Source: Herbaspirillum sp. YR522 (GTDB taxonomy: Bacteria; Pseudomonadota; Gammaproteobacteria; Burkholderiales; Burkholderiaceae_D). Taken from it: a stretch of 64,000 nt of DNA. The DNA is taken from contig NZ_AKJA01000027.1 in NCBI RefSeq assembly GCF_000282575.1, forward strand, positions 1 to 64,000, written 5' to 3'. Under the pieces are notes generated by a model that saw nothing but the letters and a program-made list of their open reading frames with translations, was not told the DNA's origin and searched no databases. A program made the position numbers and the translations under genes. Positions 14,794 through 44,116 of the stretch are shown piece by piece. How positions within the stretch are numbered: the stretch's first letter is position 1; the number at the start of each line of letters is the position of its first letter.

Positions 14794-16302
14794 ATGACCA
14801 ATACAGTCAAGCGCACCCGCTCCGACCCGGCGCAGGCCGGCACCACCGCCCTGCCCGCCGGCCCCGCCTCTGGCTGGCCGATACTGTCGCGCGAGGGCGG
14901 CGATTCGCTGGTGCAGCAGATCGTGCGCAGCATCCGCGCGCGCATCGACGACAAGCTCCTGCGCACCGGCGCGCGCATGCCCTCGATCAGGCAGTTTGCC
15001 GATGACCACCAGGTGTCGCGTTTCACCGTGGTCGAGGCCTACGACCGGCTGGTGGCGCAGGGCTTCCTGGAATCGCGGCGCGGCTCCGGCTTCTATGTGA
15101 AGGATCGTTCCGGCGGCAGCATCGGTGCCGGCTTTGGCGCGCCGCACCAGGCGCCGGTGGCGCCGCCGGCCGATGTCGACGTGGTCTGGCTGGTGCGCAA
15201 CATGTTTCGCCAGTTGCCGCCACACAAGATGCCGGGCGGCGGCTTGCTGCCGCCGGATTGGCTCGATGGCGAACTGATCGCCAACGCCCTGCGCGCGGTC
15301 AGCCGTGAAAACCCTTCGCTGCTGCTGGGCTACGGCACGCCGCAGGGCTTTCTGCCGCTGCGCCAGCAGTTGCAGCTCAAGCTGGCCGAGCACGAGATCG
15401 CGGCCGGCCCGCAACAGATCGTGTTGACCAGCGGCGTCACGCAGGGCATCGATACGGTGGCGCGTCACTTCCTGCGTCCGGGCGATGTGATCTTCGTCGA
15501 TGATCCGGCCTGGTTCCTGATGTTCGGCTCGTTCGCCGCGCTGGGCGCACGCGTGATCGGCATCCCGCGCGGCGCCGACGGCCCCGATATCGCCTCGCTG
15601 GCCGAACTGGCGGCACTGCACCGGCCCAAGCTGTATGTCATCAATTCGGTGCTGCACAACCCGACCTCGACCTCGCTGTCGGCGGCCAAGGCGTTCCAGA
15701 TCCTGCGCGTGGCCGAGGAATACGACTTCACCATCGTCGAGGACGACATCTATTGCGACATGCATCCCGGCCCTGCGGTGCAGGCCGCCACCCGCATTGC
15801 CTCGCTGGATCAGCTGCAGCGGGTGATCTACCTGGGCGGATTGTCGAAGACGCTATCGGCCAACCTGCGCGTGGGCTTCATCGCCACGTCCACCGAACTG
15901 GCGCGCCAGCTGGCCGATCGCAAGATGCTGGCTACTCTCACCACCGGCGAGATCGGCGAGCGGGTGGCCTACAAGGTGCTGTCGGAGGGGCACTATCGCA
16001 AGCACGCGGAGCGCCTGCGCGGACGGCTCGATGGCGTGCGCGACAAGGTGGTACGCCAGCTCGAACGCATCGGCATCGACGTCGGCGAGCCGCCCTCGTG
16101 CGGCATGTTCCTGTGGGTCGATGCGGGGTGCGACACCAACGTACTGGCCGAACGCGCCATGGAACAGGGCTTCCTGCTGGCGCCGGGCGCCCTGTTCTCG
16201 CCGGCGCAGCTGCCGTCGACCCGCATGCGCATCAACGTGGCGTCGATGGGCGACCCGGGCATCTGGCGCTTCCTCGAACGGGAGATGGACCGGCGCGCGT
16301 AG
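14794..16302 (+). CDS. MocR-family regulator (GntR wHTH fused to aminotransferase domain)
   Basis: Regulator of 502 aa. The GntR-type winged helix (about residues 38-102, including MPSIRQFADDHQVSRFTVVE) joins an aminotransferase-like domain whose PLP lysine is Lys352 in LGGLSKTLSANLRVGFIA. YDFTIVEDDIYCDMHPG is the second PLP-site segment. It is divergent from the dehydratase-LysE-EamA operon across 116 bp that contain repeated ATAC/TACAG elements (14734-14805), a plausible operator. Ligand unknown, probably an amino acid or its PLP adduct. Confidence 0.92.
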   Translation: MTNTVKRTRSDPAQAGTTALPAGPASGWPILSREGGDSLVQQIVRSIRARIDDKLLRTGARMPSIRQFADDHQVSRFTVVEAYDRLVAQGFLESRRGSGFYVKDRSGGSIGAGFGAPHQAPVAPPADVDVVWLVRNMFRQLPPHKMPGGGLLPPDWLDGELIANALRAVSRENPSLLLGYGTPQGFLPLRQQLQLKLAEHEIAAGPQQIVLTSGVTQGIDTVARHFLRPGDVIFVDDPAWFLMFGSFAALGARVIGIPRGADGPDIASLAELAALHRPKLYVINSVLHNPTSTSLSAAKAFQILRVAEEYDFTIVEDDIYCDMHPGPAVQAATRIASLDQLQRVIYLGGLSKTLSANLRVGFIATSTELARQLADRKMLATLTTGEIGERVAYKVLSEGHYRKHAERLRGRLDGVRDKVVRQLERIGIDVGEPPSCGMFLWVDAGCDTNVLAERAMEQGFLLAPGALFSPAQLPSTRMRINVASMGDPGIWRFLEREMDRRA

Positions 16303-16335
16303 CGCCGGCCCCGACACCCGGGCCGCCCAGGCCGC

Positions 16336-19300
16336 TCAGGCCGCCAGCTGGATGTGGATACGCGCCACTTCGTTGACGTGGTTGGTATCGGCAGCGGCGT
16401 AGAACACGTAATCACCGTTGCCGAAGATCAGATAGCTGTAGGCGGTATCGGTGGTGTCGATCTGGATCGATTCCGTGGCGGTCATCTTGATGGTCAGTAC
16501 ATTGTTCACGCCCATGCTGGTGACGTCGGTGGCGCGCACCAGCATGTTGGTATTGCTGCCGGACGACACGTCCAGCACGCTGATGCCGGTGGCGTCGGCG
16601 GAAAACTTGGACAGCGTGAGCGTAGCTGCCAGGTTATCGAAGTGCAGCGTGGTGGTGCCGGCGCTGCCGGCACCATAGGCGTGGTTCAGGTTGTCGGTGC
16701 CGGTACTGGCGTTGACGATGCCATTGTTGACCCCGCCGGCGCTGACGTTGAAGGTGCTGGTACCGGTGCCGGCGTACAGCGTGTTCATGCCGCCTTGCTG
16801 GGCGTTGATGATGTCGGTCTGGCCGCTGGCGGCGTTGCCGGCATTGAGCACGTTGGTGGTGCCGGTTCCCAGCGCGGTGAGCGTGTTGCCGTTGCCGTCG
16901 CCGGTCAGCGTACTGTTGACGCTGGCGCTGCCGATCAGGTTGAATATGCCTGAATAGGTATCACCGGCGGCGTCGCCGCCGCTGCCGGTGCCGCTGGCCA
17001 GGCTGGCGGTGATGGCGCTGCCGGTAGCGTACTGGTAGCTCACGGTATCGCTGCCGCCGCCGCCGACGAAGGCGTTGCCGCTGCTGTTGGCATAGAACAG
17101 GTCGGCAAAGGCGCTGCCGGTGGCGTTCTGGATGTTGGCGTAGGTATCGCCCGCGGCATAGCCGTTGGCGCCGGTATTGTGGAACAGGTCCACCGTCACG
17201 CCCGCGGTCGAACGCGCATAGTTGACGGTATTGGTGCCGCTGCCGCCATCGAAGAAGTTGGCCACCGCGCTGGCATAGAAGGTGTCGCTGAAATTGCTGC
17301 CGACGATGTTGCTGATGCCGTTGAACGAGTCGCCGGCGGCGTAGCCGCCGCTGGTGTTGGCGCCGGTGGTGTTGCTCAGGTCGACCGTCACGCCGGCAGT
17401 CGAGCCGATGTAGCTGACGGTATCGACGCCACCGCCGCCGACGAACACGTTGGCCTGCGAGCTGGCGATGAAGGTGTCGTTGAAGCTGCTGCCGATGACG
17501 TTATAGATATTGTTGAGCTGGTCGCCCTGGGCGTCGCCGCCGGTGCCCACGCCGGTGCGCAGGTCGATCGTCACGGCCGCGCCCGAACCGACATAGCTGG
17601 CGTAGTTGCCGGTGCCCACGCCGGTGATGTTGTCGGCGCCGCCACCACCGACGATCACCGAATTGCCGCCCGCGGCGCCCTTGAGCACGTCATTGTAGGC
17701 GCTGCCGATCAGGTTCTCGATGTTGACGAAGCGGTCGCCCGCCGCATAGCCGCCCGAGGTGCCGCTGCCGTCGGTGACCGACAGGTCCACCGTCACCGCG
17801 CTGGTGGAGGTGGCGTAGCTGACGGTATCGGTGCCGGCGCCGCCATCGAAGCTGTTGGCCTGGGCATTGGCCACGAAGGTGTCGTTGAAGCTGCTGCCGA
17901 TCAGATTGTTGATGAACGACAGCCGGTCGCCGGTGGCGTCGCCACCCGAGGTGCCGGTGCCGTCCGAGTAATTCAGGTCGACCGTCACCCCGGCCGAAGA
18001 CCCTGCGTAGCTGGCCGTGGTATAGGCACGGTTGGCCGCGATGCCGATCAGCGTGTCGCCGCCGGCGCCGCCGGTCAGCACCGAGCTCACACCCACCGTT
18101 GCATAACCGATCAGGGTGTCGGCATAAGCGCTGCCGATCACGTTCTGGATGTTGGTGAACGTGTCGCCGGCAGCATAGCCGCCGTTGCCCGAGCCTACGC
18201 TGGGCGACAGGTTGACCGTCACCGCCGCGGTCGATGCGGCATAGCTGACCGTATTGGAACCGGCGCCACCGTCGAAGTTGTTGCTGGCGGCACTGGCGAC
18301 GAACAAGTCGTTGTAGGCACTGCCGGTGAGGTCCTGGATGTTGACCAGGGTGTCGCCGGCGGCATAGCCACCGGAGGTGCCGGTGCCGTCGGTGTAGTTC
18401 AGGTCCACCGTCACGCCCGCATTGGAGGCGGCGTAGCTGACCCGGTTGTGCGACGAGGTGCCGCCGCCGTCGAAACGGTTGGCCGCTGCGCTGGCCACGA
18501 AGGTATCGTCGTAGATGCTGCCGGTCAGGTCCTGGATGTTGGACAACTTGTCGCCGGCCGCATAGCCGCCCGAGGTGCCGGTGCCATCGGTGTAGTTCAG
18601 GTCGACCGTGACGGCGGCGGTGGAGGCGGCATAGCTGACCCGGTTGTGCAGCGAGGTGCCGCCGCCGTCGATGACGTTGGCCACGCTGCTGGCAACGACG
18701 GTGTCGTCGGCCGCGCCACCCAGGAAATTCTGGATATTGAGGTAGATGTCGCCGTTGGCGTCGCCGGCCGTGCCGGTTCCAAGATTGAGGTCGACCGTGA
18801 CCGAGCCCGAGCTTTCGTAGCTGATGGTATTGCTGCCGGCGCGGCCATCGAACCTGTTGGCCACGCCGTTGCCCACGAAGATATCGTCGCCGGCGCCGCC
18901 GATGGCGTTCTGGATGTTGACATAGGTATCGCCCGCGGCGTCGCCCAGGCTACCCTGGTTGCTGACCAGGTTGACCTTGACGGCCGCGGTCGAATTCTCG
19001 TAGCTGACGGTGTTGTTGCCGGCGCCGCCATCGATACGGTTGGCCACCGCACTGCCGATGATGAGGTCGTTGCCGGCGCCGCCGGTGGCGTTCTGGATGT
19101 CGTGGTAGAGGTCGCCCGCGGCGTCGCCGGCGGTGCCGATCTGCTGCCCCAGGTCGATCGTCACCGCGCCCGTCGAGGCTTCGTAGCTGACCGTGTTGGT
19201 GCCGGTGCCACCCCAGAATTCATTGAGCTGGCCGTTGCCCACGAAGGTGTCGTCCAGGGCGCTGCCGATGACCTTCTGGATGTTCTCGTAGGTATCCAGG

Positions 19301-22300
19301 TTGGCATCGCCGCCGGTGCCGATATTGTTGGCCAGGTCGACCTTCACGCCGGCCGTCGACGTGGCATAGCTGACCGTATTGACGCCGGCACCGCCCTTGA
19401 TCACGTTGACCGCGCTGCTGCCGACGATGAGGTCGTCGCCCGCGCCACCGGTGGCGTTCTGGATGTTGAAATAGGTGTCGCCCGCGGCATCGCCGGCCAG
19501 GCCCTGGGCTTGCTTGAGGTCGATGGTGACGGCACCGGTCGAGCTCTCGTAGCTGACCGTGTTGTTGCCCAGGCCGCCATCGATCACGTTCACATCGGCG
19601 CTGCCCACCAGGATGTCGTTGCCGGCACCGCCGGTCACGTTCTGGATGCGCACATAGGTGTCGTTCAAGGCGTCGCCCAGCAAGCCCTGGCCGGTGGCCA
19701 GGTTGACCTTCACCGCACCGGTGGAGTTCTCGTAGCTGACCGTGTTGACGCCGGCACCACCGTCGATGGCGTTGGTCGCCGCGCTGCCCACGATGGTGTC
19801 GTTGCCCAGCCCGCCGATGGCGTTCTGGATGTTGTAGTAGCGGTCGCCGGCGGCGTCGCCCAGGCTGCCGCTGCCGGTGGCCAGGTTGATCTTGACCGCC
19901 GCCGACGAATGCTCGTAGCTGACGGTGTTGCTGCCGTTGCCGCCTTCGAAGTTGTTGACGTCGGCATTGCCCACGAAGGTGTCGTCGCCGTTGCCGCCCT
20001 GCGCATTCTGGATCCGCACGTAGGTGTCGCCGGCGGCGTCGTTGTTGAAACCCTGGCCGAGAAACAGGTCGACCTTCACGCCCGCGCTCGAATTCTCGTA
20101 GCTGACCGTGTTGCCGCTGCCGCCACCGCCATCGATGGCGTTGGCCACGGCGCTGGCGACGATGATGTCGTCGCCGGCACCACCGATGGCATTCTGGATA
20201 TTGGCGTAGGTGTCGCCGGCGGCGTCGCCGCTCAGGCCCAGGCCGCTGGCCAGGTTCACCTTGACTGCGGCGGTGGCGTGCTCGTAGCTGACCGTGTTGC
20301 TACCCAGGCCGCCATCGAATTTGTTCACGCTGGCATTGCCCACCAGAATATCGTTGCCGGCCCCGCCGATGGCGTTCTGGATGTTCAGGTAGGTGTCGCC
20401 GGCGGCGTCGCCCAGGCTGCCCTGGTTGGTGGCCAGGTCGACCTTGACCGCCGTCAGCGCCTGTTCGTAAGAGACCGTATTGTTGCCCAGCCCGCCGTCG
20501 ATGCGGTTGACCTGGCCGGTGGCCACGATCAGGTCGTCATAGACGCTGCCCACCACGTTCTGGATGTTGGTGAAGGTGTCGCCGGTGGCGAAGTTCTGGG
20601 CCAGCGTGTTGTCGCGCGTGTTGGTCAGGTCGACGATCACCGCGCCGGTGGCATGCGAATAGTTGACCGTGTTGCCGCTGGTGCTGTTGCCGTTGAAGCC
20701 GTTGGCGTCGGCGCTGGCATAGAAGGTATTGCCGCCGGCGCTGCTGCCGATCACGTTCTGGATGTGCACCAGGGTGTCGCCCTGCGCATTGCCGCCCACG
20801 CCGGTGCCGGTAAACAGGTCGACCGTGACGGCCGCGCCAGCCGAATAATCGACCGTATCCGAGCCGGCCAGGCCGCCGTCGAAGATATCGGCGCCGGCGC
20901 CGCCGATGAAGGTGTCCGAGTACGAACTGCCGACGATCTTCTGGATATTGGTCAGCGCGTTGACCGGCTCGAACGTGCGGGTGACCGTATTGGTCAGCAT
21001 GTTGGCCGTGATCGCCGAGGACGAGCCGCTGTAGTCGACGGTATTGAGCGTGCCGCCGCCGCCATTGAAGTTCTTGCTGTCCAGCCCGACCACGAAGGTA
21101 TCGTTGCCGTCGCCGCCGATCACGTTCTGGATGCGGATGTAGGTGTCGCCTGCCGCATCGCCATTGGACCCGCGCCCGGTCACCAGGTTGACCGTCACCG
21201 CGGCCGTCGAGCCGGCGTAGCTGACCGTGTCGTTGCCGCCGCTGCCGCCGTCGAAGCTGTTGACCGCGGCGTTGCCCACGAAGGTATCGTCGTAGGCGCT
21301 GCCGACGAAGTTCTGGATCCCGTTGTAGGTATCGCCGGCGGCAAAGCCGCCGCTGCCCAGGTTGGACTTCAGGTTCACCGTCACGCCGGCCGTCGACAGC
21401 GCATACGACACGGTGTCGGTGCCACCGTTGCCGGTGAAGCTGTTGGCCGCGCTGCTGGCGATGAAGGTGTCGTTGCTGGTACTGCCGATGACGTTTTCGA
21501 TACTGACGTAGGTGTCGCCGGCGGCATCGCCGCCGCTGCCGACGTTATTGACCAGGTCGACCGTCACGCCGGAGGCCGAATGCGCATACGACACCGTGTC
21601 CGAGCCGCCGGTGCCACCGTCGAACCTGTTGACCTGGCCGCTGGCCACGAAGGTGTCGTTGTTGGCGCTGCCGACCAGGTTCTGGATATTGGTCAGCTGG
21701 TCGCCCTGGGCATCGCCGCCGGTGCCCACGCCGGTATTGAGGTCGATCGTCACGCCCTGGGTCGAACCGGCGTAGCTGGCCGTATTGTTGCCGGTGCTGC
21801 TACCGACCAGTTGGTCGGCGCCGGCCCCGCCCTGGAAGAAGCTGCTGCTGCCGACGCCGCCATAGATGATGTCGTTGCCGGTGCCGCCATAGAGCAGGTC
21901 ATTGGCATTGCTGCCATAGATGGTGACCCCGCCGTTGCCGGCATGTACCTCGTGCGGCACGCCTTGCGCCGGGAAGATCAGCACGTTGTCGCCGGTGGAC
22001 GGATCGAGATAGGTCAGGTCGGCCGACGAGGTGGCATCCTTGATCGCCACGTGGCGCGTATCGGACAGGGTCAGCACGCCGCTGGAGGTCGCCATGGTGG
22101 TGACGAACGACAGGTCGAACTGCGAATGCACCGGGCTGCTGGCATTGGCCAGCTGGGTGTTGTACTGGAACTGCAGGTTGAATTCGGTCTGGCCCGGCGC
22201 GATGGTGATCTGGTACACCCCGCCGCCCATGTTGGTGCCGTTGAGCAGCGTCACGTCGCTGGGCACGCCCATGACGGTCAGCGTCAGCAGCGTGACGTCG

Positions 22301-23235
22301 CCGCCGACCTTGACGTTGAATACCTTGATGAAGGTATTGCTGTTGTTGCCAGAGGCGTAGATGGTATGGACGTCATCGCCGGCGGTGATCACCTGGCGCG
22401 CGAACTGCACCGCGTTGGAACCATCGCTGGCCGATTGCGGCGTGCCGCCGCTGCCGTACAGCACATCGCCCACCTGGGTGATGGTGGTCAGGTTGACCAG
22501 GTTCACCGACAGGGTCGGCGAACCGGGGCCGGTCACCACCGTGGAGGGCGTGGTCGGCGGGCGCTCCGGCGGCACTTGCACATCGACCGGCCGGGTAGGC
22601 TCGGAGTCGGAAGAATTCTGGTTGGGGTTGGTCGCCACCTGCCCGCCCACCGGGGAGGCATCACCCGCGGTCGGCTGGGTCGGTATCGACAGCGTCTGTG
22701 CGCCGTTGGTGACCGACTTGGAATTGTCGGCGATCACCTTGGCCAACTGGCTGGTGGCGTCCCCGGTGACCGAATGCGAATTGTCGGCAATCACCTTGGC
22801 CAGTTGGCTCAACGTGTCGCTGGCCACCGGCGCGGCATTGCGGTCGGCGCCCTGGCCCTGGCCCGGGCCGTATTGCTCGGTGGTGCCGGTCCGGTCCTGC
22901 GCGGCCACCGGATCGGAATTGAGCACCCGCGACTGGTCGTTGGGCGCCAGCGGGATCTTGCCCACGGTATCGAGCAGGCGTCCGGTATCGGCGCTGCCAT
23001 CGCTGAACTTGACCTTGGACTTGTCGTCCATCGCCTCCATGGCGCCACCGGCCAGCACCACCTTGGTGCCATCGGCCATGTGCAGCACCAGGTCGACGTC
23101 GACCACCTGTACCTTCTGCACCGCGCCGCGCGGCGCGTTGAGCTGGAAAGAGCCGCCCTGGTCGGGCATCACCACCCGGACCGGGCCGGTGACTTTGTCG
23201 CCTGGGTTGGCTTGGGGTGAAGGTGCGGTTGCCAT
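16336..23235 (-). CDS. giant RTX-type repeat protein, type I secreted adhesin candidate
   Basis: Protein of 2299 aa with no N-terminal signal peptide. Residues 1-240 are a non-repetitive, Pro/Asn-rich leader with a small internal duplication (SQLAKVIADNS twice). Residues about 240-430 look like an Ig/Calx-beta-type module. Residues 438-480 are canonical RTX nonapeptides (NDLLYGGTGNDIIYGG). From about 484 to 2125 there are 26 tandem units of roughly 60-66 aa with the pattern TVSYxxS..VTVDL, GDAAGDTYxNIQN and GGAGNDxxVGN. The C-terminal roughly 170 aa include a short tail ending IHIQLAA, the likely uncleaved type I secretion signal. It is the last gene of the secretion operon. Calcium-dependent surface or biofilm adhesion is the best guess. 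Confidence 0.9.
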   Translation of the reverse strand: MATAPSPQANPGDKVTGPVRVVMPDQGGSFQLNAPRGAVQKVQVVDVDLVLHMADGTKVVLAGGAMEAMDDKSKVKFSDGSADTGRLLDTVGKIPLAPNDQSRVLNSDPVAAQDRTGTTEQYGPGQGQGADRNAAPVASDTLSQLAKVIADNSHSVTGDATSQLAKVIADNSKSVTNGAQTLSIPTQPTAGDASPVGGQVATNPNQNSSDSEPTRPVDVQVPPERPPTTPSTVVTGPGSPTLSVNLVNLTTITQVGDVLYGSGGTPQSASDGSNAVQFARQVITAGDDVHTIYASGNNSNTFIKVFNVKVGGDVTLLTLTVMGVPSDVTLLNGTNMGGGVYQITIAPGQTEFNLQFQYNTQLANASSPVHSQFDLSFVTTMATSSGVLTLSDTRHVAIKDATSSADLTYLDPSTGDNVLIFPAQGVPHEVHAGNGGVTIYGSNANDLLYGGTGNDIIYGGVGSSSFFQGGAGADQLVGSSTGNNTASYAGSTQGVTIDLNTGVGTGGDAQGDQLTNIQNLVGSANNDTFVASGQVNRFDGGTGGSDTVSYAHSASGVTVDLVNNVGSGGDAAGDTYVSIENVIGSTSNDTFIASSAANSFTGNGGTDTVSYALSTAGVTVNLKSNLGSGGFAAGDTYNGIQNFVGSAYDDTFVGNAAVNSFDGGSGGNDTVSYAGSTAAVTVNLVTGRGSNGDAAGDTYIRIQNVIGGDGNDTFVVGLDSKNFNGGGGTLNTVDYSGSSSAITANMLTNTVTRTFEPVNALTNIQKIVGSSYSDTFIGGAGADIFDGGLAGSDTVDYSAGAAVTVDLFTGTGVGGNAQGDTLVHIQNVIGSSAGGNTFYASADANGFNGNSTSGNTVNYSHATGAVIVDLTNTRDNTLAQNFATGDTFTNIQNVVGSVYDDLIVATGQVNRIDGGLGNNTVSYEQALTAVKVDLATNQGSLGDAAGDTYLNIQNAIGGAGNDILVGNASVNKFDGGLGSNTVSYEHATAAVKVNLASGLGLSGDAAGDTYANIQNAIGGAGDDIIVASAVANAIDGGGGSGNTVSYENSSAGVKVDLFLGQGFNNDAAGDTYVRIQNAQGGNGDDTFVGNADVNNFEGGNGSNTVSYEHSSAAVKINLATGSGSLGDAAGDRYYNIQNAIGGLGNDTIVGSAATNAIDGGAGVNTVSYENSTGAVKVNLATGQGLLGDALNDTYVRIQNVTGGAGNDILVGSADVNVIDGGLGNNTVSYESSTGAVTIDLKQAQGLAGDAAGDTYFNIQNATGGAGDDLIVGSSAVNVIKGGAGVNTVSYATSTAGVKVDLANNIGTGGDANLDTYENIQKVIGSALDDTFVGNGQLNEFWGGTGTNTVSYEASTGAVTIDLGQQIGTAGDAAGDLYHDIQNATGGAGNDLIIGSAVANRIDGGAGNNTVSYENSTAAVKVNLVSNQGSLGDAAGDTYVNIQNAIGGAGDDIFVGNGVANRFDGRAGSNTISYESSGSVTVDLNLGTGTAGDANGDIYLNIQNFLGGAADDTVVASSVANVIDGGGTSLHNRVSYAASTAAVTVDLNYTDGTGTSGGYAAGDKLSNIQDLTGSIYDDTFVASAAANRFDGGGTSSHNRVSYAASNAGVTVDLNYTDGTGTSGGYAAGDTLVNIQDLTGSAYNDLFVASAASNNFDGGAGSNTVSYAASTAAVTVNLSPSVGSGNGGYAAGDTFTNIQNVIGSAYADTLIGYATVGVSSVLTGGAGGDTLIGIAANRAYTTASYAGSSAGVTVDLNYSDGTGTSGGDATGDRLSFINNLIGSSFNDTFVANAQANSFDGGAGTDTVSYATSTSAVTVDLSVTDGSGTSGGYAAGDRFVNIENLIGSAYNDVLKGAAGGNSVIVGGGGADNITGVGTGNYASYVGSGAAVTIDLRTGVGTGGDAQGDQLNNIYNVIGSSFNDTFIASSQANVFVGGGGVDTVSYIGSTAGVTVDLSNTTGANTSGGYAAGDSFNGISNIVGSNFSDTFYASAVANFFDGGSGTNTVNYARSTAGVTVDLFHNTGANGYAAGDTYANIQNATGSAFADLFYANSSGNAFVGGGGSDTVSYQYATGSAITASLASGTGSGGDAAGDTYSGIFNLIGSASVNSTLTGDGNGNTLTALGTGTTNVLNAGNAASGQTDIINAQQGGMNTLYAGTGTSTFNVSAGGVNNGIVNASTGTDNLNHAYGAGSAGTTTLHFDNLAATLTLSKFSADATGISVLDVSSGSNTNMLVRATDVTSMGVNNVLTIKMTATESIQIDTTDTAYSYLIFGNGDYVFYAAADTNHVNEVARIHIQLAA
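16870..21786 (-). repeat. about 26 tandem ~190-bp coding repeats in the giant protein
   Basis: Each unit encodes one TVSY-to-FDGG module of about 60-66 residues. I counted 26 by hand from the translated sequence. Units in the middle (8-16) share TVSYE and GDAAGDTY and are more alike than those at the ends; units 18-21 share an insertion DGTGTSGGYAAGD. Number and boundaries could vary between strains or be collapsed in assemblies. Confidence 0.85.
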
Positions 23236-23323
23236 GGTGCCTCGCTATCCGAAGTCAGGTGTGGGTTGTCGTTACGTCAATCATTGTTTGCCGTGCGGCA
23301 ATTCCAGCCGCAATCCTACCGTA

Positions 23324-25033
23324 TTACTGCAACATCTTGTCGCGCGGCCCGTCGGCTGCGATGCGCCCGCCGTCGATGACGATGATGCGGTCCAGGTGGC
23401 GCAGCAACGCCGGGCTATGGGTGGCCACCACCAGCGTGCGCCCGCTGGAAAAGCCCATCAGCCGTTCGATGATGCGCGCTTCGGTGGCCTGGTCGATGCC
23501 GGTGGTCGGTTCGTCCAGCAGCAGGATGCGTGGGTTGGCGGCCACCGCGCGTGCCAGGGCCACCATCTGGCGCTGCCCGCCCGACAGGTTGCCGGGCGCC
23601 CTGAGCATCTGGTCCAGGCGCAGCTCGCCGCGGGCGATCAGCTCGTCCAGGCCCGACACGCCCAGCGCCGCCTCGTAGACGCTGCCCAGCACCCGTTCGC
23701 CGACGAAGATATTGGCCGCCAGCGTGCCATCGAAGACGAACGGCTCTTGCGGCTTGAAGCCCAGGTTTTGCATGCGCACCTCGGGGGCATAGGCGGTCAC
23801 GGCCACGCCATCGATGAGCGCATGGCCCTGCTCGACGTGATGCAACCCGGCCAGCACCTTGAGCAGGCTCGACTTGCCCGAGCCGGAGCGGCCGACGATA
23901 CCGACCTTCTCACCGGGCTGGATGGTCAGTGCCACCTGCTGCAGGGTCGCCCTTTCGTTCTTGTCCAGGTGCAGGGTCAGGTTGCCGACCTGGATCAGGC
24001 CGCGCATTTCCTGGCGCAGCACGTCGGCGCCGCCGGTGCCGGCACTGTCGTCGAACAGCGCATCGAACTCGGCCCGGGCACGGCGAAACATCTCGATACG
24101 CCCAAGGAAGGTCGACAGCGACGACAGCACCGACGTCGAACGACTGATCAGCAGCGACGAGGCGATCAGGGCGCCGACGGTAAGTGCGTTGTCCTCGACC
24201 AGGTAGACCCCGACCACCAGCGTGGCCACCGACATGGCGGTGTAGCCGACGGTACCCACGGCGTACCCGGTATTGGTCCAGAAGCGGCTCTTGGCCTGGG
24301 CCACCGCATTGTCGGCGGCGTCGGCCAGGAAGGCCTTGAGCAGCCGTTGCTGCAGCAGCGAGGTCTTGAGCGTATCCATGCCATAGACCAGGCTGGCCAT
24401 CTTGTCGGTCTTGCCGATGCCGGCCTTCATGGCGGCGATCGCATAATCGTTGGACGGCACCTTGAACAGCAACTGCGCGCCCACCAGCAGCGCACCGCCG
24501 ACCAGCATCACCCACACCAGGTGCGAACCGACCAGCCCGATGGCCACCAGGTACAGCAGCAGGAAAGGCAAGTCCACCAGCAGCAGCATGTAATTGGACG
24601 ACAGCAGGTCGCGCGCGCCGGACAGGTCACGGTAGCGTGCCAGCACCACCCCCACCGGCGCGCTCACGCGCGAACTCAGCAGGCGTCGCGCCGAGACCTC
24701 GTCGAACTCGACATCGAGCCGCCCGGCCAGCTGTTCGGTGTAATACACGCGGATGATGCGCAGCATCAGTTCCAGCGCCACGAACAGCAGCATGCCCAGC
24801 GTCAGCGCCCACAGGGTCTCGGGAATATGATTGCCGATCACCTTGTCGTAGATCAGTCGCGAATACAGCGGCAGCAGCAAACCCAGCAGGTTGACCACGA
24901 TTCCCGCCACGATGATCTCGACGAAGCGCGCGCCATAGGCGCGCAGCAACGACAGGTAGGTCGGGTCCGCGCGCAGGCCCGCCGCCGCGGATGGCGGCGC
25001 GTTGTTGACGTGGACCTGGTCGCTTTCGTTCAT
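23324..25033 (-). CDS. type I secretion ABC transporter (permease/ATPase)
   Basis: Inner-membrane exporter of 569 aa powering secretion of the giant protein. A short N-terminal tail (about 35 aa) leads directly into an ABC transmembrane domain (about 38-310). The nucleotide-binding domain has Walker A GRSGSGKSS (381-389), Q-loop Gln429, signature LSGGQ (483-487), Walker B ILLLDE (503-508) and H-loop His539. No C39 peptidase or C39-like domain precedes the membrane part, unlike LapB or HlyB, so substrate recognition must differ or involve partners. Starts 21 bp after the MotA-like gene; the substrate gene follows after 88 bp. Confidence 0.93.
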   Translation of the reverse strand: MNESDQVHVNNAPPSAAAGLRADPTYLSLLRAYGARFVEIIVAGIVVNLLGLLLPLYSRLIYDKVIGNHIPETLWALTLGMLLFVALELMLRIIRVYYTEQLAGRLDVEFDEVSARRLLSSRVSAPVGVVLARYRDLSGARDLLSSNYMLLLVDLPFLLLYLVAIGLVGSHLVWVMLVGGALLVGAQLLFKVPSNDYAIAAMKAGIGKTDKMASLVYGMDTLKTSLLQQRLLKAFLADAADNAVAQAKSRFWTNTGYAVGTVGYTAMSVATLVVGVYLVEDNALTVGALIASSLLISRSTSVLSSLSTFLGRIEMFRRARAEFDALFDDSAGTGGADVLRQEMRGLIQVGNLTLHLDKNERATLQQVALTIQPGEKVGIVGRSGSGKSSLLKVLAGLHHVEQGHALIDGVAVTAYAPEVRMQNLGFKPQEPFVFDGTLAANIFVGERVLGSVYEAALGVSGLDELIARGELRLDQMLRAPGNLSGGQRQMVALARAVAANPRILLLDEPTTGIDQATEARIIERLMGFSSGRTLVVATHSPALLRHLDRIIVIDGGRIAADGPRDKMLQ

Positions 25034-25054
25034 GGCGTTCCCGTGCTACCCGGC

Positions 25055-26719
25055 TCAGGCCTGCGGACGATTGGCATTCATCTCGCGAATCGCCTCGCGC
25101 AGCTCCAGGCGCAAGTCCTTGATCATGGTCTGGCGGCCCGAGCGCATTTCGTCGATCACGGTCTGCCAGTTGATGTTCTGGCGCATCAGTGCCTCGGTGA
25201 TCGACGTCAGCGACTGCGGAATGGCGCCCAGGCCCTTGATGCGATCGTTCTGCATCGCCATGTGCTTGGCCAGGTCGATCTGCAACTGGCGTGCCGACAA
25301 CGCATCGCGCGCCATGTTGCTGGTGTTCTCGCCGATGGTGTTGCCCAGTTCGCCCAGGCGCGAAGCCACCGAGGAGTGGATTTCGGCCTGGTGCTGGATG
25401 GCGCCCATCTCGTCGGCCAGGCGAATCGATATCTGGCTCAGCAGCGCCGGCAACTGCGCGATGTTCTGGGCGCTCTGTTCGTTCATGTTCGAGATTTCGC
25501 TCTGCTGCGCCTGCAGCGATGTCATCGCCGACGACAACGCGGTCTGCCCGGCCTGGATCGTGGAGACGATCTGCGGCAGCACTTCGAAGGTGCGGTTGGC
25601 GATATCGCCGTTGACCGACAGGCGTTCCTCGAGCAGCGACAGGCTGTCCGACAGGTCGCGCGCCGAAGTGACCTTCTGGTTGATGATCTGGCCCACGTTG
25701 CGGATCTCTTCCAGCGTCTGCTGCCCCACTTCGTGCATGCGCGGGCCGAAGGCCACCAGCTGGCGCAGGCTGCGCGACTCTTCCATGCTATCGGTAAACA
25801 GCTGGACGATGTTGTTGAGGCGGTCGTTCAGGCCTTCCAGCTTGATGCCCGCCTGCAGCGAGGCTTCCGAGCTGTTGCGCGAAGCCATGATCGATTCGCG
25901 CTGCAGCACCATCAAGTCCTGCAGGAATTCGGCCAGGAAGGTCTCCGACACACCCTGGCGCTGGGTGGCGGCCGGCCCCGACATGTCGTGCACCACGTGC
26001 TGCACCATGTCGCTGATGCATTCGCGGGCGCGCACCACCAGCTTCTTGCCGGCACCGCGCAGCGGCGTCAGGGTCAGGCCCAGCGCCAGCGAACCGATCA
26101 GGCCGAACATCGAGGCCGAGAACGCAGTACCCATCGAGGCCAGCGGTTTTTGCAGGTCGGCCACCAGGTGCATGAAGGACGCATCCATGTCGCCGCCCTG
26201 GGTCGCCTTGCCGAAACCGTCGATCAGCGCGGCCGTGCCCACCAGCGTCTCGAGCAGGCCGATGAAGGTGCCCAGCAGGCCCAGCGCGATCATGAAACCG
26301 GTCAGGAACTGCGGGAACTCGGTCTTGGCCTCGAGATGGGCGCGCAGGTCGTGCAGCGAGCTCTCGATGGTTTCCTGCTCGATGCGCGAAGTCAGGCGGC
26401 CCTTGGTGCTGGCCACGCTGACGAGCACCTGGCCGATCTCGGTGCCGGCGAACTCGGGCGCCTTGACCAGCTCGTCCATCGACTCGCCGGCCTTGGTGCG
26501 ATCGTAGAACTGCATCAGCTTGTCGTGTTCCCAGTTCAGGCGCCACAGGTTGTACATGATCAGGCCCACGCCGAACACGGCCACGCCGATGATGAACAGG
26601 TTCAGGAAGGGATTGATATGGATCGCATGCAGGACGAAGTCCCGGAACAGGAAGCCTCCCAACAGCAACATCAGCGTCGGGATGGCGGCAAGTGCATAGA
26701 ATTGGCGTAGGTTTTTCAT
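25055..26719 (-). CDS. MotA/TolQ/ExbB-like proton-channel protein with long helical tail
   Basis: Membrane protein of 554 aa. Hydrophobic segments lie at about 9-25, 40-57, 139-165 and 197-219. The third holds LGLLGTFIGLLETLVG, the channel signature of the MotA/TolQ/ExbB/ZorA superfamily, and the fourth GTAFSASMFGLIGSLALG. Residues 230-554 are polar and predicted largely alpha-helical or coiled-coil, longer than in MotA. It should form a pentamer around the MotB-like partner two genes upstream and use the ion gradient. In Salmonella SPI-4 the SiiB/SiiA pair plays this role beside a type I system. It begins exactly where the 45-codon ORF ends (ATGA overlap). Confidence 0.85.
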   Translation of the reverse strand: MKNLRQFYALAAIPTLMLLLGGFLFRDFVLHAIHINPFLNLFIIGVAVFGVGLIMYNLWRLNWEHDKLMQFYDRTKAGESMDELVKAPEFAGTEIGQVLVSVASTKGRLTSRIEQETIESSLHDLRAHLEAKTEFPQFLTGFMIALGLLGTFIGLLETLVGTAALIDGFGKATQGGDMDASFMHLVADLQKPLASMGTAFSASMFGLIGSLALGLTLTPLRGAGKKLVVRARECISDMVQHVVHDMSGPAATQRQGVSETFLAEFLQDLMVLQRESIMASRNSSEASLQAGIKLEGLNDRLNNIVQLFTDSMEESRSLRQLVAFGPRMHEVGQQTLEEIRNVGQIINQKVTSARDLSDSLSLLEERLSVNGDIANRTFEVLPQIVSTIQAGQTALSSAMTSLQAQQSEISNMNEQSAQNIAQLPALLSQISIRLADEMGAIQHQAEIHSSVASRLGELGNTIGENTSNMARDALSARQLQIDLAKHMAMQNDRIKGLGAIPQSLTSITEALMRQNINWQTVIDEMRSGRQTMIKDLRLELREAIREMNANRPQA

Positions 26720-26853
26720 ACGTGCGGGGTTCCGGGCAGATGGATGCGGTAAATGCAGTCAGGACGATAAGAACAGAAACGGGAAATCGACGCCCGCACC
26801 TGGCGGGTATCGACCAATACGGTGGCAGACGGGCTGGGCAGCGTGCGGCTCAT
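26716..26853 (-). CDS. small 45-aa ORF bridging the adaptor and channel genes
   Basis: Unrecognised. Its ATG overlaps the HlyD-like stop (ATGA) and its TGA overlaps the MotA-like start (ATGA), so it fits the gap exactly, in line with the overlaps elsewhere in the operon. GAGGGAG lies about six bases before the ATG. The product starts MSRTLPSPSATVLVDTRQ, ends HLPGTPHV, has two cysteines (FCSY, PDCI), is basic, and shows no membrane segment. It may be a real subunit or only a coupling ORF that carries ribosomes from hlyD to motA. Confidence 0.55.
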   Translation of the reverse strand: MSRTLPSPSATVLVDTRQVRASISRFCSYRPDCIYRIHLPGTPHV

Positions 26854-28223
26854 CGTGGCTCCCTCAGCGCCGACTGCGAGAAACGCGACAGCGGCGACAT
26901 CAGGTACTGCCACACGGTGCGGCGCCCCACGATCATGTCGGCGGTGGCGGTCATGCCCGGCATCAGCGCCAATGGCTGCTGCAATTGCTGGGCATTGCGC
27001 TGGACCTCGATCTTGACACGGTAGTAACGCTCGTAACGCTCGCCGCGCTCTTCGGGCACGGTGTCGGCGCTGACCTCGGTGACGGTGCCATCCATGGCGC
27101 CGTACACCCCGTAGTCATAGGCCGAGACCTTCACGCGCGCCGGCGCGCCGGTCATCAACTGGGCGCGGTCGGTGGGCGAGATCCGGGCTTCGATCACCAG
27201 CTTGTCGTCGCTGGGGGTCATCTCGATGATCGGGTCGCCCGGGCGCACCACGCCACCCACGGTATTGATGAGCACCCGGTTGACCACGCCATCCATGGGC
27301 GCCCTCACCTCCGAGCGCGAGACGCGGTCATTGCGCGACTTGATTTCTTCCTGCAGGCGCGCCAGTTCGGTCTCGGCCGTGGTCAGCTCCGAGCGCGCCT
27401 CGGAGCGAAAGCGCGACGACGCCTCGCCCATCTTGGCCTGCGATTCGGCAATCGCCGCGTTCAGGCGCGGGATCATGGCGTTGGTGGCGGCCAGCTTGCT
27501 CTGCGCGTCCTGCACCCGGGCGGCGGACTGGATATCTTCCAGCTGCGAGGCGGCATTGCGTTCCAGCATGCCGTGGATCAGCTTGTACTGGCGCTGCGCC
27601 AGGTCCAGTTCGCTGGCCAGGCTCTTCTGGCGACTGACCGCCTCGCCCAGCTCGGCCTGGCGCTGCGCCGATTGCTCGCGCAGCACCGACAGCTCCTGCG
27701 ACAGCTTGGCCGCACGCGCGGCGAACGAGGCTTGCTCGCTCTGCACCGCCGGGTCGTCGCGCGATAGGTCGGCCGGCATCTGCAAGGCGTTGCTGCCGGC
27801 CGCTTCGGCCGCCAGCCGGGCGCTCTTGGCGCGCAGGCCGAGGATCTTGACCCGGCCTTCGCCCAGGTCGGCGTTGGCCCGCACGTCGGCAATCGAGATC
27901 AGCGTCTGGCCCTTCTTGACGACCGCGCCCTCGCGCACCAGGATGGCCGACACGATGCCGCCTTCCAGGTGCTGGATCACCTGGTTATGCTCGGAGGCGA
28001 CGATGCGACCGCTGCCGCGTACCACCATGTCGATCGGAGCGAAGATCGACCACACCACCAGCAGTGCCAGCAGCGCCACGCAGGCCAGCACCGCCAGGCG
28101 CGGGCGCGGCATCGCCCCCAGCTGGCCCAGCCGGCGATCCAGGCGCGGTGCCAGGCGGCGCATCAAGCCGCGACCGCGGGACGCGATCCCGAGCCCGGCG
28201 GCGGGCTTGGCCGAGCCGATCAC
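26850..28223 (-). CDS. HlyD-family periplasmic adaptor of the type I system
   Basis: Membrane-fusion protein of 457 aa linking the ABC exporter to the TolC-like channel. A cytoplasmic basic N-terminus (1-42) precedes one membrane helix (about 43-61). Then follow a lipoyl/barrel-sandwich half (GSGRIVASEHNQVIQHLEGG), a long coiled coil (about 115-330) and the second half motif (VRAPMDGVVNRVLINTVGG). The start is GTG, overlapping the stop of the MotB-like gene (GTGA); no better ATG fits. Close coupling to the channel gene suggests equimolar assembly. Confidence 0.92.
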   Translation of the reverse strand: MIGSAKPAAGLGIASRGRGLMRRLAPRLDRRLGQLGAMPRPRLAVLACVALLALLVVWSIFAPIDMVVRGSGRIVASEHNQVIQHLEGGIVSAILVREGAVVKKGQTLISIADVRANADLGEGRVKILGLRAKSARLAAEAAGSNALQMPADLSRDDPAVQSEQASFAARAAKLSQELSVLREQSAQRQAELGEAVSRQKSLASELDLAQRQYKLIHGMLERNAASQLEDIQSAARVQDAQSKLAATNAMIPRLNAAIAESQAKMGEASSRFRSEARSELTTAETELARLQEEIKSRNDRVSRSEVRAPMDGVVNRVLINTVGGVVRPGDPIIEMTPSDDKLVIEARISPTDRAQLMTGAPARVKVSAYDYGVYGAMDGTVTEVSADTVPEERGERYERYYRVKIEVQRNAQQLQQPLALMPGMTATADMIVGRRTVWQYLMSPLSRFSQSALREPR

Positions 28224-28993
28224 TTCGCCCCCGCCAGGTATTGCACCAGCACGCGCGAGACGTCGGTCTCGCTGTTCTCGGCGGTGGCCACGCGGCTGAC
28301 CACGAGCTCCTTGTCCACGCCGGCATCGATCAGGTAGTTGCGCACCGCCACGGTGCGATAGTAGGCACGACGGCGACTGTCGCTATAGCCGCCCGAACTG
28401 ATCACGCCCGTCACCACGATCTTGCCCTGGCGCGCCTTGACCCGGCGCACCCAGTCGCCCAGGCTCTTGTCGAGCGCGCGGGTGCCCTCTTCCGACAACT
28501 GGGTCGAATCGGCATTGAAGTTGAGCACCACGCCACGGTCGGTGGCATCGGTGCGCACGCCGGGCGCGATTTCGTCCTTGGTCGGATCGGTCTTGACCTG
28601 GATCGCATTGGGGCTGGAGGGCGCTGCACTGCTGCGCAGGCTGCCGGCATCGGACTGCAGCGGCGGCGCCGCCAGCTTGGCCTTGAGCTGCGCCACCTCG
28701 CGCTTGAGCGACTCGATCTCCTGCGCACTGTCGCGTTCGGCGCGGGTCTCGGAGACGCGCGCATCCTTGGCCTCGGGCGTGTCGATGCGCACGCTCTTGT
28801 TGCGCTCGCTGCCTTGCACGGTCTGGCTCTGGCTTTGCTGCACCAGCTTGCTGACCTTCATCTGGGCCAGCTTCTGCGAGTAATAAAACAGGGTGACGAC
28901 GAACACCACCACCACGAAAATCATGACCAGCACCACGTTGGACAAGGCGTCCACGAAGCCCGGCCAGAAATTCTGCTCTTTTCCACCCTCCAT
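28220..28993 (-). CDS. MotB/OmpA-like protein, channel partner of the type I system
   Basis: Protein of 257 aa with a short cytoplasmic N-terminus, one membrane helix (about 16-37) and a periplasmic part. FWPGFVDALSNVVLVMIF places Asp15 at the start of the helix, as in the proton-binding aspartate of MotB, ExbD and ZorB. Residues about 45-110 are coiled coil (AQEIESLKREVAQLKAKL). The C-terminal roughly 100 aa resemble an OmpA-like peptidoglycan-binding domain (VLNFNADSTQLSEEGTRALD, RTVAVRNYLIDAGV), though its usual NxxLSxxRA motif is degenerate. With the MotA-like protein it likely forms a peptidoglycan-anchored stator, comparable to SiiA of Salmonella. Confidence 0.85.
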   Translation of the reverse strand: MEGGKEQNFWPGFVDALSNVVLVMIFVVVVFVVTLFYYSQKLAQMKVSKLVQQSQSQTVQGSERNKSVRIDTPEAKDARVSETRAERDSAQEIESLKREVAQLKAKLAAPPLQSDAGSLRSSAAPSSPNAIQVKTDPTKDEIAPGVRTDATDRGVVLNFNADSTQLSEEGTRALDKSLGDWVRRVKARQGKIVVTGVISSGGYSDSRRRAYYRTVAVRNYLIDAGVDKELVVSRVATAENSETDVSRVLVQYLAGAK

Positions 28994-29009
28994 GAATCCC
29001 CCGAGAATC

Positions 29010-30626
29010 CTATTTCACTGCCTGCGCAGGCACGGCGCCAGGCGCCGAGGCGCGGCCGGTGTTGCGCAGGATCTGGTAGCTGATGTCTGCCTGCTGGAAC
29101 AGCAGCGTTGCAAAATCCATGCGCGCCTGGTAGGCCTGCTGGTAGGCATCGAGCACGTCGAGCAACTGCTTGCTGCCGGTCGAGAGCTGTTCCAGGAACA
29201 CATCGGCCACGTTGGCATTGGTCTGGTAGGCCTGGCGCGAGATCTCCATGCGCTTGCGCACCGCACCCAGGGTGCGATAGTTGATCTCGATCTGCTCGCG
29301 CAGCTTGCGTTCGACATCCAGCGCGGTGTTGCTCTTCTCGACGTACTTGGCGCCGATCTGCTTCTGGTAATACATGTCGGAGCCGCCATTGAGCAGGTTC
29401 ATCGACATCACCAGCATCAGGCGGCGGTCGGTCTGCAATTGCAGCCCGCCGCTGGTGGTATCGATGGCGCCGCCGGCGCCACGGGTCTTCTGCTGCGTCC
29501 ACTCCAGCGCAAAGGTGGGCGAGAACTTGGCCCGCGCCGCCTTCAGTTCCTCGTCGGCGGCCGCCACGTCACGGCGCGCCGCGCGCACGCCAGGGTTGCT
29601 CTCGTAGACGTCCTGCAGCGCCATCTTGGACGTATCGGGCACCACCGGCATCATGTGGTCGGGCACCTCGACCTGCTCGATCTTGCGACCGGTGACCTGG
29701 TTCAGCGACACCATGGCCGCCTCCAGCGCACCTTCGGCTTCGGCCACCGCCGCCTGCGCGGTCAGCGAGCGGCCACGTACCCGCTCGAAATCGATCCGGC
29801 TGGCGCCGCCGCCCTCGACCCGCTTGCGCATGTAGTCGAGCAGGGCATTCATGCGTTGCGAATAGCTGCGGGCAAACGACAGGGCGGCATAGGCGCGCAT
29901 CAGGTCGTAATAGGACTTGATGGCGGTGTAGTACAGCGTCTCGCGGGCATCGTCGCGACGCAGGTCGGCGGCCTGCGACAGCGCGCGCGACTTCTGGAAA
30001 TCAAAATAGGAACCCGGCGCCAACAGGGGCTGGCGACCGATCACCGTCACGTCCCAGCGCTTGTGGTCCGAGGCGCGCTGGATCAGGCCGGTATTGGGAT
30101 CGATCACCGACGAAGGCGACGAATATTCCTGGCCTTTCTGGGCGCGCACATCAAGGGTCGGCCCCAGCTGCCCGGCCGCGACGCGAGCGGCATAGCCGGC
30201 CTGGTCGGCCTGGGCCGAGGTGGCGGCGTAGCTATAGCTGTTATTGAGCGCCAGCTCCAGCACCTGCTGCAAGGTCAGGTTGGGCACCGGTTCACCCTCG
30301 GCGGCGATGGCGATCTGGGGCAGCGTGATGGTGCTGCTCTTGAAGTCGGGATCTGCCTGGCGCAGCAGCACCACGATCTCGTCGTCCGGACTGGGACCGG
30401 ACTTCGCGTCCATCGGCAACAGCGCGGGCAACCTGGCATCGGCGGCAGCCGGCCCGGCCGGGTCGCTGCCAAGGCGGATCTGCGGCGGGGCTTCGAGCCG
30501 CTCGAGCTGGGCCGGCGGCGGCAGAGGCAATTCGGGTGAGCCGGCTTCGGCGGCCATGACGGCGCTCGAGGCGCCCAGGCCGAGCGAAACGCCCAATAAG
30601 ATACGTTTGCTTGTGAGAACTATCAT
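29010..30626 (-). CDS. TolC-family outer-membrane efflux protein
   Basis: Outer-membrane channel of 538 aa and first gene of the secretion operon. The signal peptide (about 1-25, ending SAVMAAEA) is followed by a proline-rich linker (about 28-110) not present in E. coli TolC. Two outer-membrane-factor repeats then follow, including LTLQQVLELALNNSYSY and SNPGVRAARRDVAAADEELK. The end STGSKQLLDVLDAYQQAYQ is typical of the second repeat. The MotB-like gene begins 16 bp downstream. A LapE/SiiC-like role is inferred from context. Confidence 0.92.
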   Translation of the reverse strand: MIVLTSKRILLGVSLGLGASSAVMAAEAGSPELPLPPPAQLERLEAPPQIRLGSDPAGPAAADARLPALLPMDAKSGPSPDDEIVVLLRQADPDFKSSTITLPQIAIAAEGEPVPNLTLQQVLELALNNSYSYAATSAQADQAGYAARVAAGQLGPTLDVRAQKGQEYSSPSSVIDPNTGLIQRASDHKRWDVTVIGRQPLLAPGSYFDFQKSRALSQAADLRRDDARETLYYTAIKSYYDLMRAYAALSFARSYSQRMNALLDYMRKRVEGGGASRIDFERVRGRSLTAQAAVAEAEGALEAAMVSLNQVTGRKIEQVEVPDHMMPVVPDTSKMALQDVYESNPGVRAARRDVAAADEELKAARAKFSPTFALEWTQQKTRGAGGAIDTTSGGLQLQTDRRLMLVMSMNLLNGGSDMYYQKQIGAKYVEKSNTALDVERKLREQIEINYRTLGAVRKRMEISRQAYQTNANVADVFLEQLSTGSKQLLDVLDAYQQAYQARMDFATLLFQQADISYQILRNTGRASAPGAVPAQAVK

Positions 30627-31051: not shown

Positions 31052-31139
31052 CCAGCAAGTCGCGATACGCATGCCGCCCGGCGGCGTTGCCGATTGCCGC
31101 GCACCGACTCCTTCCCACCATTGCTTTAAGGAAATAAAC

Positions 31140-41739: not shown

Positions 41740-42170
41740 ACTTAGCTGCCGCCGCGGACATAAATACAGCATTGGTGTATGCGGCATGGCCGCGCACTTG
41801 AAGGCGAAAATCGTTTTGGACGGGGGTTCGATTCCCCCCACCTCCACCAAATGCGGGAAGGGGCGCTCGGCTGCCTTCCTCCATCTGAAGGGGGTGACCT
41901 GGTTTCGACAGGGCGACAAGTATCCGGAGACACACCACGTCAGGCGACCGACGTAAATAGCGCAAATCCATAATTGCAAATGAACCGCAATTCGTTGCTT
42001 ACGGCACCTAATAGTCGTTAAGCCGAGTATCCGGCCCCTTCGCAAGAAGGCTTGGGAACAGAAAGGCCGGACGTCTCTATCGTTAGCAGCGAGAGAAATG
42101 TCGAGCGTAGGCGAAGGCTTCGGACGTCTTCATAGTCGACAACCGTAGAGGGTGCAACCTGTAGACTGGG
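41740..42170 (+). ncRNA. ssrA: tmRNA, circularly permuted (two-piece) ssrA
   Basis: Rescues stalled ribosomes by trans-translation. The tRNA-like 3' part comes first: T arm GGGGG-TTCGATT-CCCCC (41822-41838), CACCTCC, A, CCA ending at 41849. After a 40-nt spacer, the coding piece begins at 41890 with GGGGGTGACCTGGTTTCGAC. Its first seven bases pair perfectly with CACCTCC to form the acceptor stem, which proves the permuted order. ACTTG (41796-41800) and CAAGT (41917-41921) give helix 2; ACGTC/GACGT (41937-41954) gives PK1. Outer ends are approximate. The tag reading frame is unusual (see findings). RNase processing should yield two RNAs. Confidence 0.88.
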
Positions 42171-44040: not shown

Positions 44041-44116
44041 GGGGCGTTAGCTCAGTTGGTAGAGCAGCGGACTCTTAATCCGTAGGTCCACAGTTCGAAT
44101 CTGTGACGCCCCACCA
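44041..44116 (+). tRNA. tRNA-Lys (anticodon CTT)
   Basis: Acceptor stem GGGGCGT/ACGCCCC, D arm with TAGCTCAGTTGGTAGAGC, anticodon loop CTCTTAA with anticodon CTT, T arm ending GTTCGAATC, and an encoded CCA end. 76 nt. Decodes AAG. Confidence 0.97.

Follow-up and report, generated by a model that had tools for sequence, protein, structure and literature searches.

A type I secretion locus with a MotA/MotB-like channel pair and a giant RTX passenger in Herbaspirillum sp. YR522 and other Proteobacteria

Within a 64,000-nucleotide stretch of Herbaspirillum sp. YR522 (contig NZ_AKJA01000027.1, positions 1 to 64,000; hereafter 'the window'), a minus-strand operon running from 30626 to 16336 encodes, in this order, a TolC-like protein, a MotB/OmpA-like protein, an HlyD protein, a 45-codon open reading frame (ORF), a MotA-like protein, an ATP-binding cassette (ABC) exporter, and an RTX passenger of 2299 amino acids (aa). 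A first-pass annotation had described this leftward operon, and the frames are found where it placed them. With ABC, HlyD, TolC, and an RTX passenger all within one locus, the system belongs to type I secretion. We propose that this system includes its own ion-driven channel of the MotA5:MotB2 type, which, by analogy with SiiAB of Salmonella, would serve as a proton gate that retains or releases the RTX adhesin (probability about 0.6). The data show the genes, the A-subunit fold as modelled, the conserved aspartate, and that channel, exporter, and N-terminal passenger module are inherited together; proton-driven gating is favoured by analogy with SiiE and SiiAB.

Systems of this kind are known from Salmonella pathogenicity island 4 (SPI-4), in which TolC, HlyD, ABC, a giant adhesin, and a MotA/MotB-like pair form one locus, as described in passages of a 2025 review (PMC12607715). 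The Herbaspirillum locus unites the same set. As had been noted from the outset, gene order and passenger differ: the order here is TolC-MotB-HlyD-MotA-ABC-passenger, whereas in Salmonella it is siiA to siiF, and the Herbaspirillum passenger carries RTX repeats where SiiE carries 53 Ig domains. In addition, the Herbaspirillum ABC is without the N-terminal C39-like domain that SiiF is described as having (PMC12607715, same passages). Additions to the known kind here are a different gene order, a short ABC, passengers of the RTX type, a wide taxonomic range, and a passenger N-terminal domain (N-domain) that also occurs in free form. Within the retrieved parts of the open-access literature, preprints excluded, channel-equipped type I systems were found in print for Salmonella only, and the retrieved part of a 2025 stator survey contained no word starting with 'Sii'.

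Channel subunits and their conservation with the exporter

The MotB-like protein consists of a single transmembrane helix carrying Asp15, a linker, and an OmpA-like domain, matched by PF00691 at 5.2e-5 and 24 bits (below the cut-off of 27.2). Residues W10, P11, G12, V14, D15, A16, N19, and R208 are invariant in 27/27 aligned rows, so the first-pass annotation had singled out a fully conserved position in Asp15; by analogy with MotB and SiiA, this residue is presumably the proton carrier. Arg208 (27/27 rows) and Arg213 (25/27) align with an arginine pair in PDB chain 6qvp, which we take to be a SiiA domain. Pal and OmpA chains are also among the PDB profile matches. Where Pal and OmpA hold an Asp that binds the cell wall, the MotB-like rows have no conserved Asp. 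One Achromobacter MotB-like protein, used as a query against the PDB, gave no relevant match. As judged by sequence, the protein is a B subunit of the MotB/ExbD/TolR/SiiA type.

For the MotA-like protein, profile matches are weak (Pfam MotA 16.5 bits, cut-off 22.9; best NCBIfam match ZorA at 8.6e-7, far below its cut-off), and the assignment is upheld because fold search and residue conservation agree. The AlphaFold model resembles ExbB, TolQ, ZorA, and MotA subunits in a PDB fold search, with ZorA structures among the matches, and the alignment of 28 rows has invariant core residues. On the model, the protein is an A subunit of the MotA/ExbB/TolQ superfamily, in which a membrane core is followed by a long helical tail (~259–549 in the model) that is presumed to be cytoplasmic. 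The MotA/MotB-type channel suggested earlier is accordingly supported for the A subunit by the model and for the B subunit by the transmembrane Asp. Searches directed at SiiB reached no SiiB sequence: an Escherichia coli motA DNA query led to genome G286, whose family of 17 genomes held no strong match (best 1.8e-6), and plasmids yielded matches in Sinorhizobium and Shinella only.

Relatives were collected with a MotA profile from one genome per species, and the best 80 of 425 were kept; among these, the named organism with the protein nearest to the MotA-like protein is Herbaspirillum sp. alder98 (98% identity). The exporter-linked set comprises 42 loci (33 with HlyD and MotA from these 80, eight from related genomes, and the window), about 40 of them distinct, as two pairs (L034/L011 and L028/L013) appear to be identical contigs. 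The core order TolC>MotB>HlyD>MotA on one strand is kept in 40 of the 42, counted directly in 38 and also accepted for L048 and L083, where an over-long ORF start mimics a flip. L018 is arranged differently, and L036 is without a called TolC. The position of ABC varies, after the core in one subset and before it in another.

The other loci among the best 80 of 425 are mostly MotA-MotB pairs of Alphaproteobacteria or unclassified Proteobacteria in whose fetched stretch HlyD is missing; this absence is our definition of exporter-free, and for some contigs the stretch is short. In these pairs, the next channel homologs, the B subunits resemble PRK09039 peptidoglycan-binding proteins. In a tree of 64 MotA cores, a branch (bootstrap 95; Shimodaira–Hasegawa-like approximate likelihood ratio test 100) separates the 24 exporter-free rows from the exporter- or adhesin-linked rows, whose deep order is unresolved; L018 and L216 sit on long branches. 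From an initial 89 rows, 25 were left out (control rows L021–L023 [wrong frame], L020, L066 [contig edge], and 20 further exporter-free rows). Because gene order is conserved and the exporter-free pairs fall on a separate side of the tree, the sequences indicate that the channel pair belongs to the exporter and is inherited jointly with it, as the first-pass annotation would have it.

The hosts of exporter-linked loci include Herbaspirillum, Sphaerotilaceae, Methylobacillus, Hydrogenophaga, Pseudomonas, Caulobacterales, and Rhodospirillales, and the system therefore spans Alpha-, Beta-, and Gammaproteobacteria. The channel pair of this lineage may be a sister of SiiAB or a separate recruitment; restriction of the lineage to Betaproteobacteria is rejected, as the Pseudomonas, Caulobacterales, and Rhodospirillales loci belong to it too. 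In two Achromobacter loci (L051 and L061), MotB and MotA come after a giant frame, and a Caulobacterales locus (L039) shows MotA followed by a giant passenger; in all three, the exporter is not in the fetched stretch.

Two further loci concern the channel genes. In genome G577, two MotB-like genes adjoin (L216:9535–11663, minus), one keeping the transmembrane Asp (WPGYVDALTN) and the other having Ala (WQGYVAAVAS); their products may form a heterodimeric B subunit. At L019:1–2497, a MotA-like frame lies beside a 260-aa frame in a stretch with no HlyD match and looks like part of another MotA-based system.

Passenger and its N-terminal module

The RTX passenger contains no Cys and is built of units mostly ~61 aa long with RTX nonapeptides. 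Ahead of the repeats, residues 1–425 are conserved across passengers and are predicted to form the N-domain, of ~70 residues (aa 18–90; blocks of predicted local distance difference test [pLDDT] scores 82–89), a low-confidence linker with one helix, and a beta-rich domain (aa 240–425; pLDDT blocks mostly 78–96, with one dip to 62). This N-terminal module, absent from the first-pass annotation, is the best clue to mechanism. A C-terminal secretion signal is characteristic of type I substrates, and the ends of other passengers are, by eye, broadly similar to that of the window's passenger.

When the passenger N-terminus was compared with known folds, none matched reliably (best E 3.2e-3, probability 0.33). 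The N-domain is weakly similar to the BapA prefix NF033677 in 6 of 10 passengers compared (best E 2.4e-4, always below the cut-off), and the passengers of L036, L039, L041, and L042 had no such match. We know of no BapA locus that carries a channel.

The window's ABC matched TIGR03375 only from model position 142 onward and thus is without the N-terminal part where other type I exporters have a C39-like domain. ABC frames measure 567–606 aa in 33 of 35 loci, a shortness judged by length, the window's ABC alone having been compared with exporter models; the two longer frames (L018, 807 aa; L216, 709 aa) still occur with the channel.

The N-domain is present in 30 of the 42 exporter-linked loci and also in L039 and L066. 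A profile made from five rows only (window, L030, L032, L014, and L015) recovered all 32 of these loci at E<1e-3 with filters off and 31 with default filters (L046 was missed); the link with the N-domain is therefore not the product of a wide profile alone. In the 12 loci without a match, the passenger start is not in view: in eight (L017, L047, L049, L065, L073, L078, L083, and L094), an RTX-like frame leaves the stretch before its start, and in four (L016, L050, L053, and L055), the stretch has no RTX-like frame whatsoever.

Whole genomes give a similar picture, with MotA and N-domain profiles that derive from the same loci. Among 116 genomes of the family, eight have exporter-type MotA (E<1e-100) and seven of these the N-domain (E<1e-20); the eighth, G064, has no passenger on its 7.6-kb contig. 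Among 399 genomes of the order, five have a strong MotA match (E<1e-30), five the N-domain, and four both (Fisher p 2.4e-8). The four (the window's genome, G428, G577, and G473) all have the exporter, whereas the genome with MotA alone (G413) has a MotA-MotB pair without exporter (L214), and the one with the N-domain alone (G026), of the window's genus, has a free-standing copy. MotA-profile matches weaker than ~1e-8, many of them to the helical-tail part, were set aside in both samples. In a class-wide sample of 274 genomes, the N-domain occurs in the window's genome only, and the MotB profile matched 69 genomes, many through the OmpA-like part alone. The system is rare but coherent, and the co-inheritance of N-domain, linker with helix, and beta-rich module with channel and exporter adds to what was known.

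In second-type loci from four genomes of the window's genus (L018, L163, L164, and L165), the N-domain is a ~130-aa protein encoded directly after MotB (E 2e-14 to 1e-13). L018 encodes TolC, an EAL-domain protein, ABC, HlyD, MotA, a 995-aa passenger, MotB, and the N-domain; its passenger is without an N-domain, the copy in this locus being the separate protein. That the domain can be joined to a passenger or stand alone next to MotB suggests a functional connection to the channel. The free protein has, by eye, no signal peptide, and its site of action may be cytoplasmic, with the MotA tail or ABC as examples of targets.

The EAL-domain gene of L018 (L018:2265–3131; 3.5e-65), between TolC and ABC, is a possible link to cyclic di-GMP. 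L163, L164, and L165 keep MotB and the free N-domain, but their stretches have no called ABC, HlyD, or MotA, and L163 and L165 moreover contain an EAL or TolC frame that continues into the C-terminus of the passenger; because of these missing calls and fused frames, the three loci look rearranged. Two orphan frames of 657 aa (L166:8726–10699) and 504 aa (L167:8383–9897) start with an N-domain and adjoin, by eye, a murA-like gene, with no exporter gene called nearby.

Locus layout and neighbouring features

The features of the operon are collected in Table 1. Frames overlap at MotB/HlyD, HlyD/short ORF, and short ORF/MotA, which fits a single operon. The TolC-like gene, the leading gene of the conserved core among relatives, has an alternative upstream TTG start, with the frame reaching 30668.

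Table 1. Features of the secretion operon in the window (aa, amino acids)
Feature	Positions	Strand	Basis or remark
TolC-like outer-membrane channel, 538 aa from ATG	29010..30626	-	PF02321 (OEP) 9.7e-36; TIGR01844 6.9e-42, below cut-off
MotB/OmpA-like channel subunit, 257 aa	28220..28993	-	OmpA PF00691; conserved residues
Codon of Asp15, presumed proton carrier	28949..28951	-	Invariant 27/27
Codons Arg208-Arg213, MotB-like periplasmic domain	28355..28372	-	Align with Arg pair of PDB chain 6qvp
HlyD-type periplasmic adaptor, 457 aa	26850..28223	-	TIGR01843 1.2e-110, 370.5 bits, cut-off 208.65 passed
45-codon ORF	26716..26853	-	Overlaps HlyD stop and MotA start
MotA/ExbB/ZorA-like channel subunit, 554 aa	25055..26719	-	AlphaFold model, PDB fold matches, conserved core
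Type I secretion ABC exporter, 569 aa	23324..25033	-	TIGR03375 (LssB) 7.5e-129, below cut-off
Giant RTX passenger, 2299 aa	16336..23235	-	PF00353 1.6e-35, nine stretches
Passenger N-domain, aa 18-90, predicted small beta domain	22966..23184	-	Model, profile searches
Low-confidence linker, aa 92-237, one predicted helix 140-171	22525..22962	-	Model pLDDT
Second conserved domain, predicted beta-rich, aa 240-425, preceding repeats	21961..22518	-	Model, conservation
Passenger C-terminal region, presumed type I secretion signal	16336..16638	-	Similar ends elsewhere

The 45-codon ORF had been listed as a gene of the operon, but its sequence is not conserved as a protein, and we reject it as a component. 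Among 10 Herbaspirillum loci (L025–L034), 7 have the frame open, as do L011–L013, and it is absent from L014 and L015, which are from another genus. By eye, sequence similarity is limited to the vicinity of the end shared with the MotA start, and for this reason the ORF is probably a translational coupler.

The operon is flanked upstream by the divergent htpG (31071–33050; HSP90 1e-134) and downstream by a convergent GntR/aminotransferase regulator gene (14794–16302). A promoter-like site upstream of tolC scores no better than shuffled sequence, and no terminator-like site was found in 16200–16400. Very long open frames opposite the RTX and exporter genes (17179–23220 and 22361–26710, both plus) probably result from base composition and repeats. 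Elsewhere in the window lie a tmRNA gene (41757–42102) and a tRNA-Lys gene (44041–44116).

Retention, release, and rival readings

Passages of a study of SiiE (PMC6272769) describe an N-terminus of beta-sheet, coiled-coil, and beta-sheet that governs retention and release: coiled-coil deletions lessen retention, and beta-sheet deletions make it longer or greater. SiiA and SiiB take part in this retention, which is lowered by an uncoupler and raised by external acid, and no proteolysis was seen (PMC6272769, same passages). How SiiAB exploits the proton gradient to hold or release the adhesin is called unresolved in the passages of the 2025 review (PMC12607715). The Herbaspirillum passenger has, by model, the same beta-helix-beta order at its N-terminus.

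We suggest that the passenger would leave C-terminus first through ABC, HlyD, and TolC and fold outside the cell on calcium, and that export would halt once the N-terminal beta-helix-beta module meets the envelope, leaving the adhesin attached. The N-domain is proposed to be a docking or retention element. The channel, held to peptidoglycan by the MotB-like domain and extending into the cytoplasm by the MotA-like tail, would use the proton gradient to keep the module engaged, or the module would be freed when the gradient drops. We favour such gating of retention because the elements follow a SiiE-like order, the channel is of the same kind, and the genome has no LapG match.

Several observations weigh against this reading. 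Deletion of siiA and siiB leaves SiiE secretion running, according to passages of PMC12607715, so that by analogy the channel here may be dispensable for export too. Chain 6qvp is the top PDB chain for the MotB-like protein, yet marginally so (E 0.032, level with Pal), and its hhalign probability of 34% is below the 82% of a Pal chain. Two of the order genomes with both MotA and N-domain, G428 and G473, appear to be the sources of loci used in building the profiles (L041 and L044), which makes G577 the sole independent positive other than the window's genome; the absences in the other order genomes are unaffected by this overlap. Finally, the free N-domain, by eye without signal peptide, may act in the cytoplasm, and a docking site on the MotA tail or ABC would suit it more readily than the role of a plug in the periplasm.

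The channel might instead power export, with proton flow helping to pull or clear the N-terminal last part of a very long passenger through the short ABC. The prevailing ABC length, passengers as huge as the 9542-aa frame of G577, and a core order that sets the channel genes amid the exporter genes agree with this. It is nevertheless unlikely in view of the SiiE secretion that persists without siiA and siiB, and because L018 and L216 keep the channel with longer ABC frames. Still less probable is a MotB-like protein that chiefly anchors the exporter in the cell wall and holds the gap, with ion flow merely signalling the state of wall or envelope: the OmpA-like domain and conserved Arg pair would suit such an anchor, but a pure anchor would need neither the invariant transmembrane Asp nor the MotA-like core residues, and no Asp is conserved at the wall-binding position of Pal and OmpA.

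LapA, too, is a giant adhesin with type I export and a folded N-terminal element, and the modelled sequence of folded N-terminal domain, low-confidence linker, and outer beta-rich domain recalls retained RTX adhesins of this sort. Retention of the LapA kind, with release by another protease and the channel as an operon bystander, is nonetheless improbable: in the window's genome, with its 168 contigs and a completeness of 100, no match to LapG (PF06035) reached E<=1e-3, the channel pair stands in its place, and channel and N-domain are co-inherited. Least credible of all is a ZorAB-like defence motor that happens to adjoin an unrelated exporter. ZorAB shares a MotA-like core with a long helical tail, ZorA leads the NCBIfam and figures in the fold matches as reported above, and PADLOC matched the pair to ZorA3 (8.7e-7) and ZorB (1.7e-4) only; but the partner genes are others, and the channel genes lie among exporter genes across genera. 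ZorC, ZorD, and ZorE had no PADLOC match among the five operon proteins and two neighbours, and a Zorya-type defence locus was rejected on this ground.

Beyond the retention gate proposed for this locus, a bolder generalization is conceivable, though we hold it only tentatively: a widespread second mode of holding adhesins, in which a proton-driven 5:2 motor rather than LapG would grip an N-terminal docking domain, and in which this domain would sometimes be a separate adaptor serving several passengers. A lineage that extends through three classes, and whose conserved passenger domain some genomes encode as a small protein of its own, supplies well-delimited parts for studies of binding, deletions, and structure; it also broadens the place of type I secretion among the machines that MotAB-like motors power.

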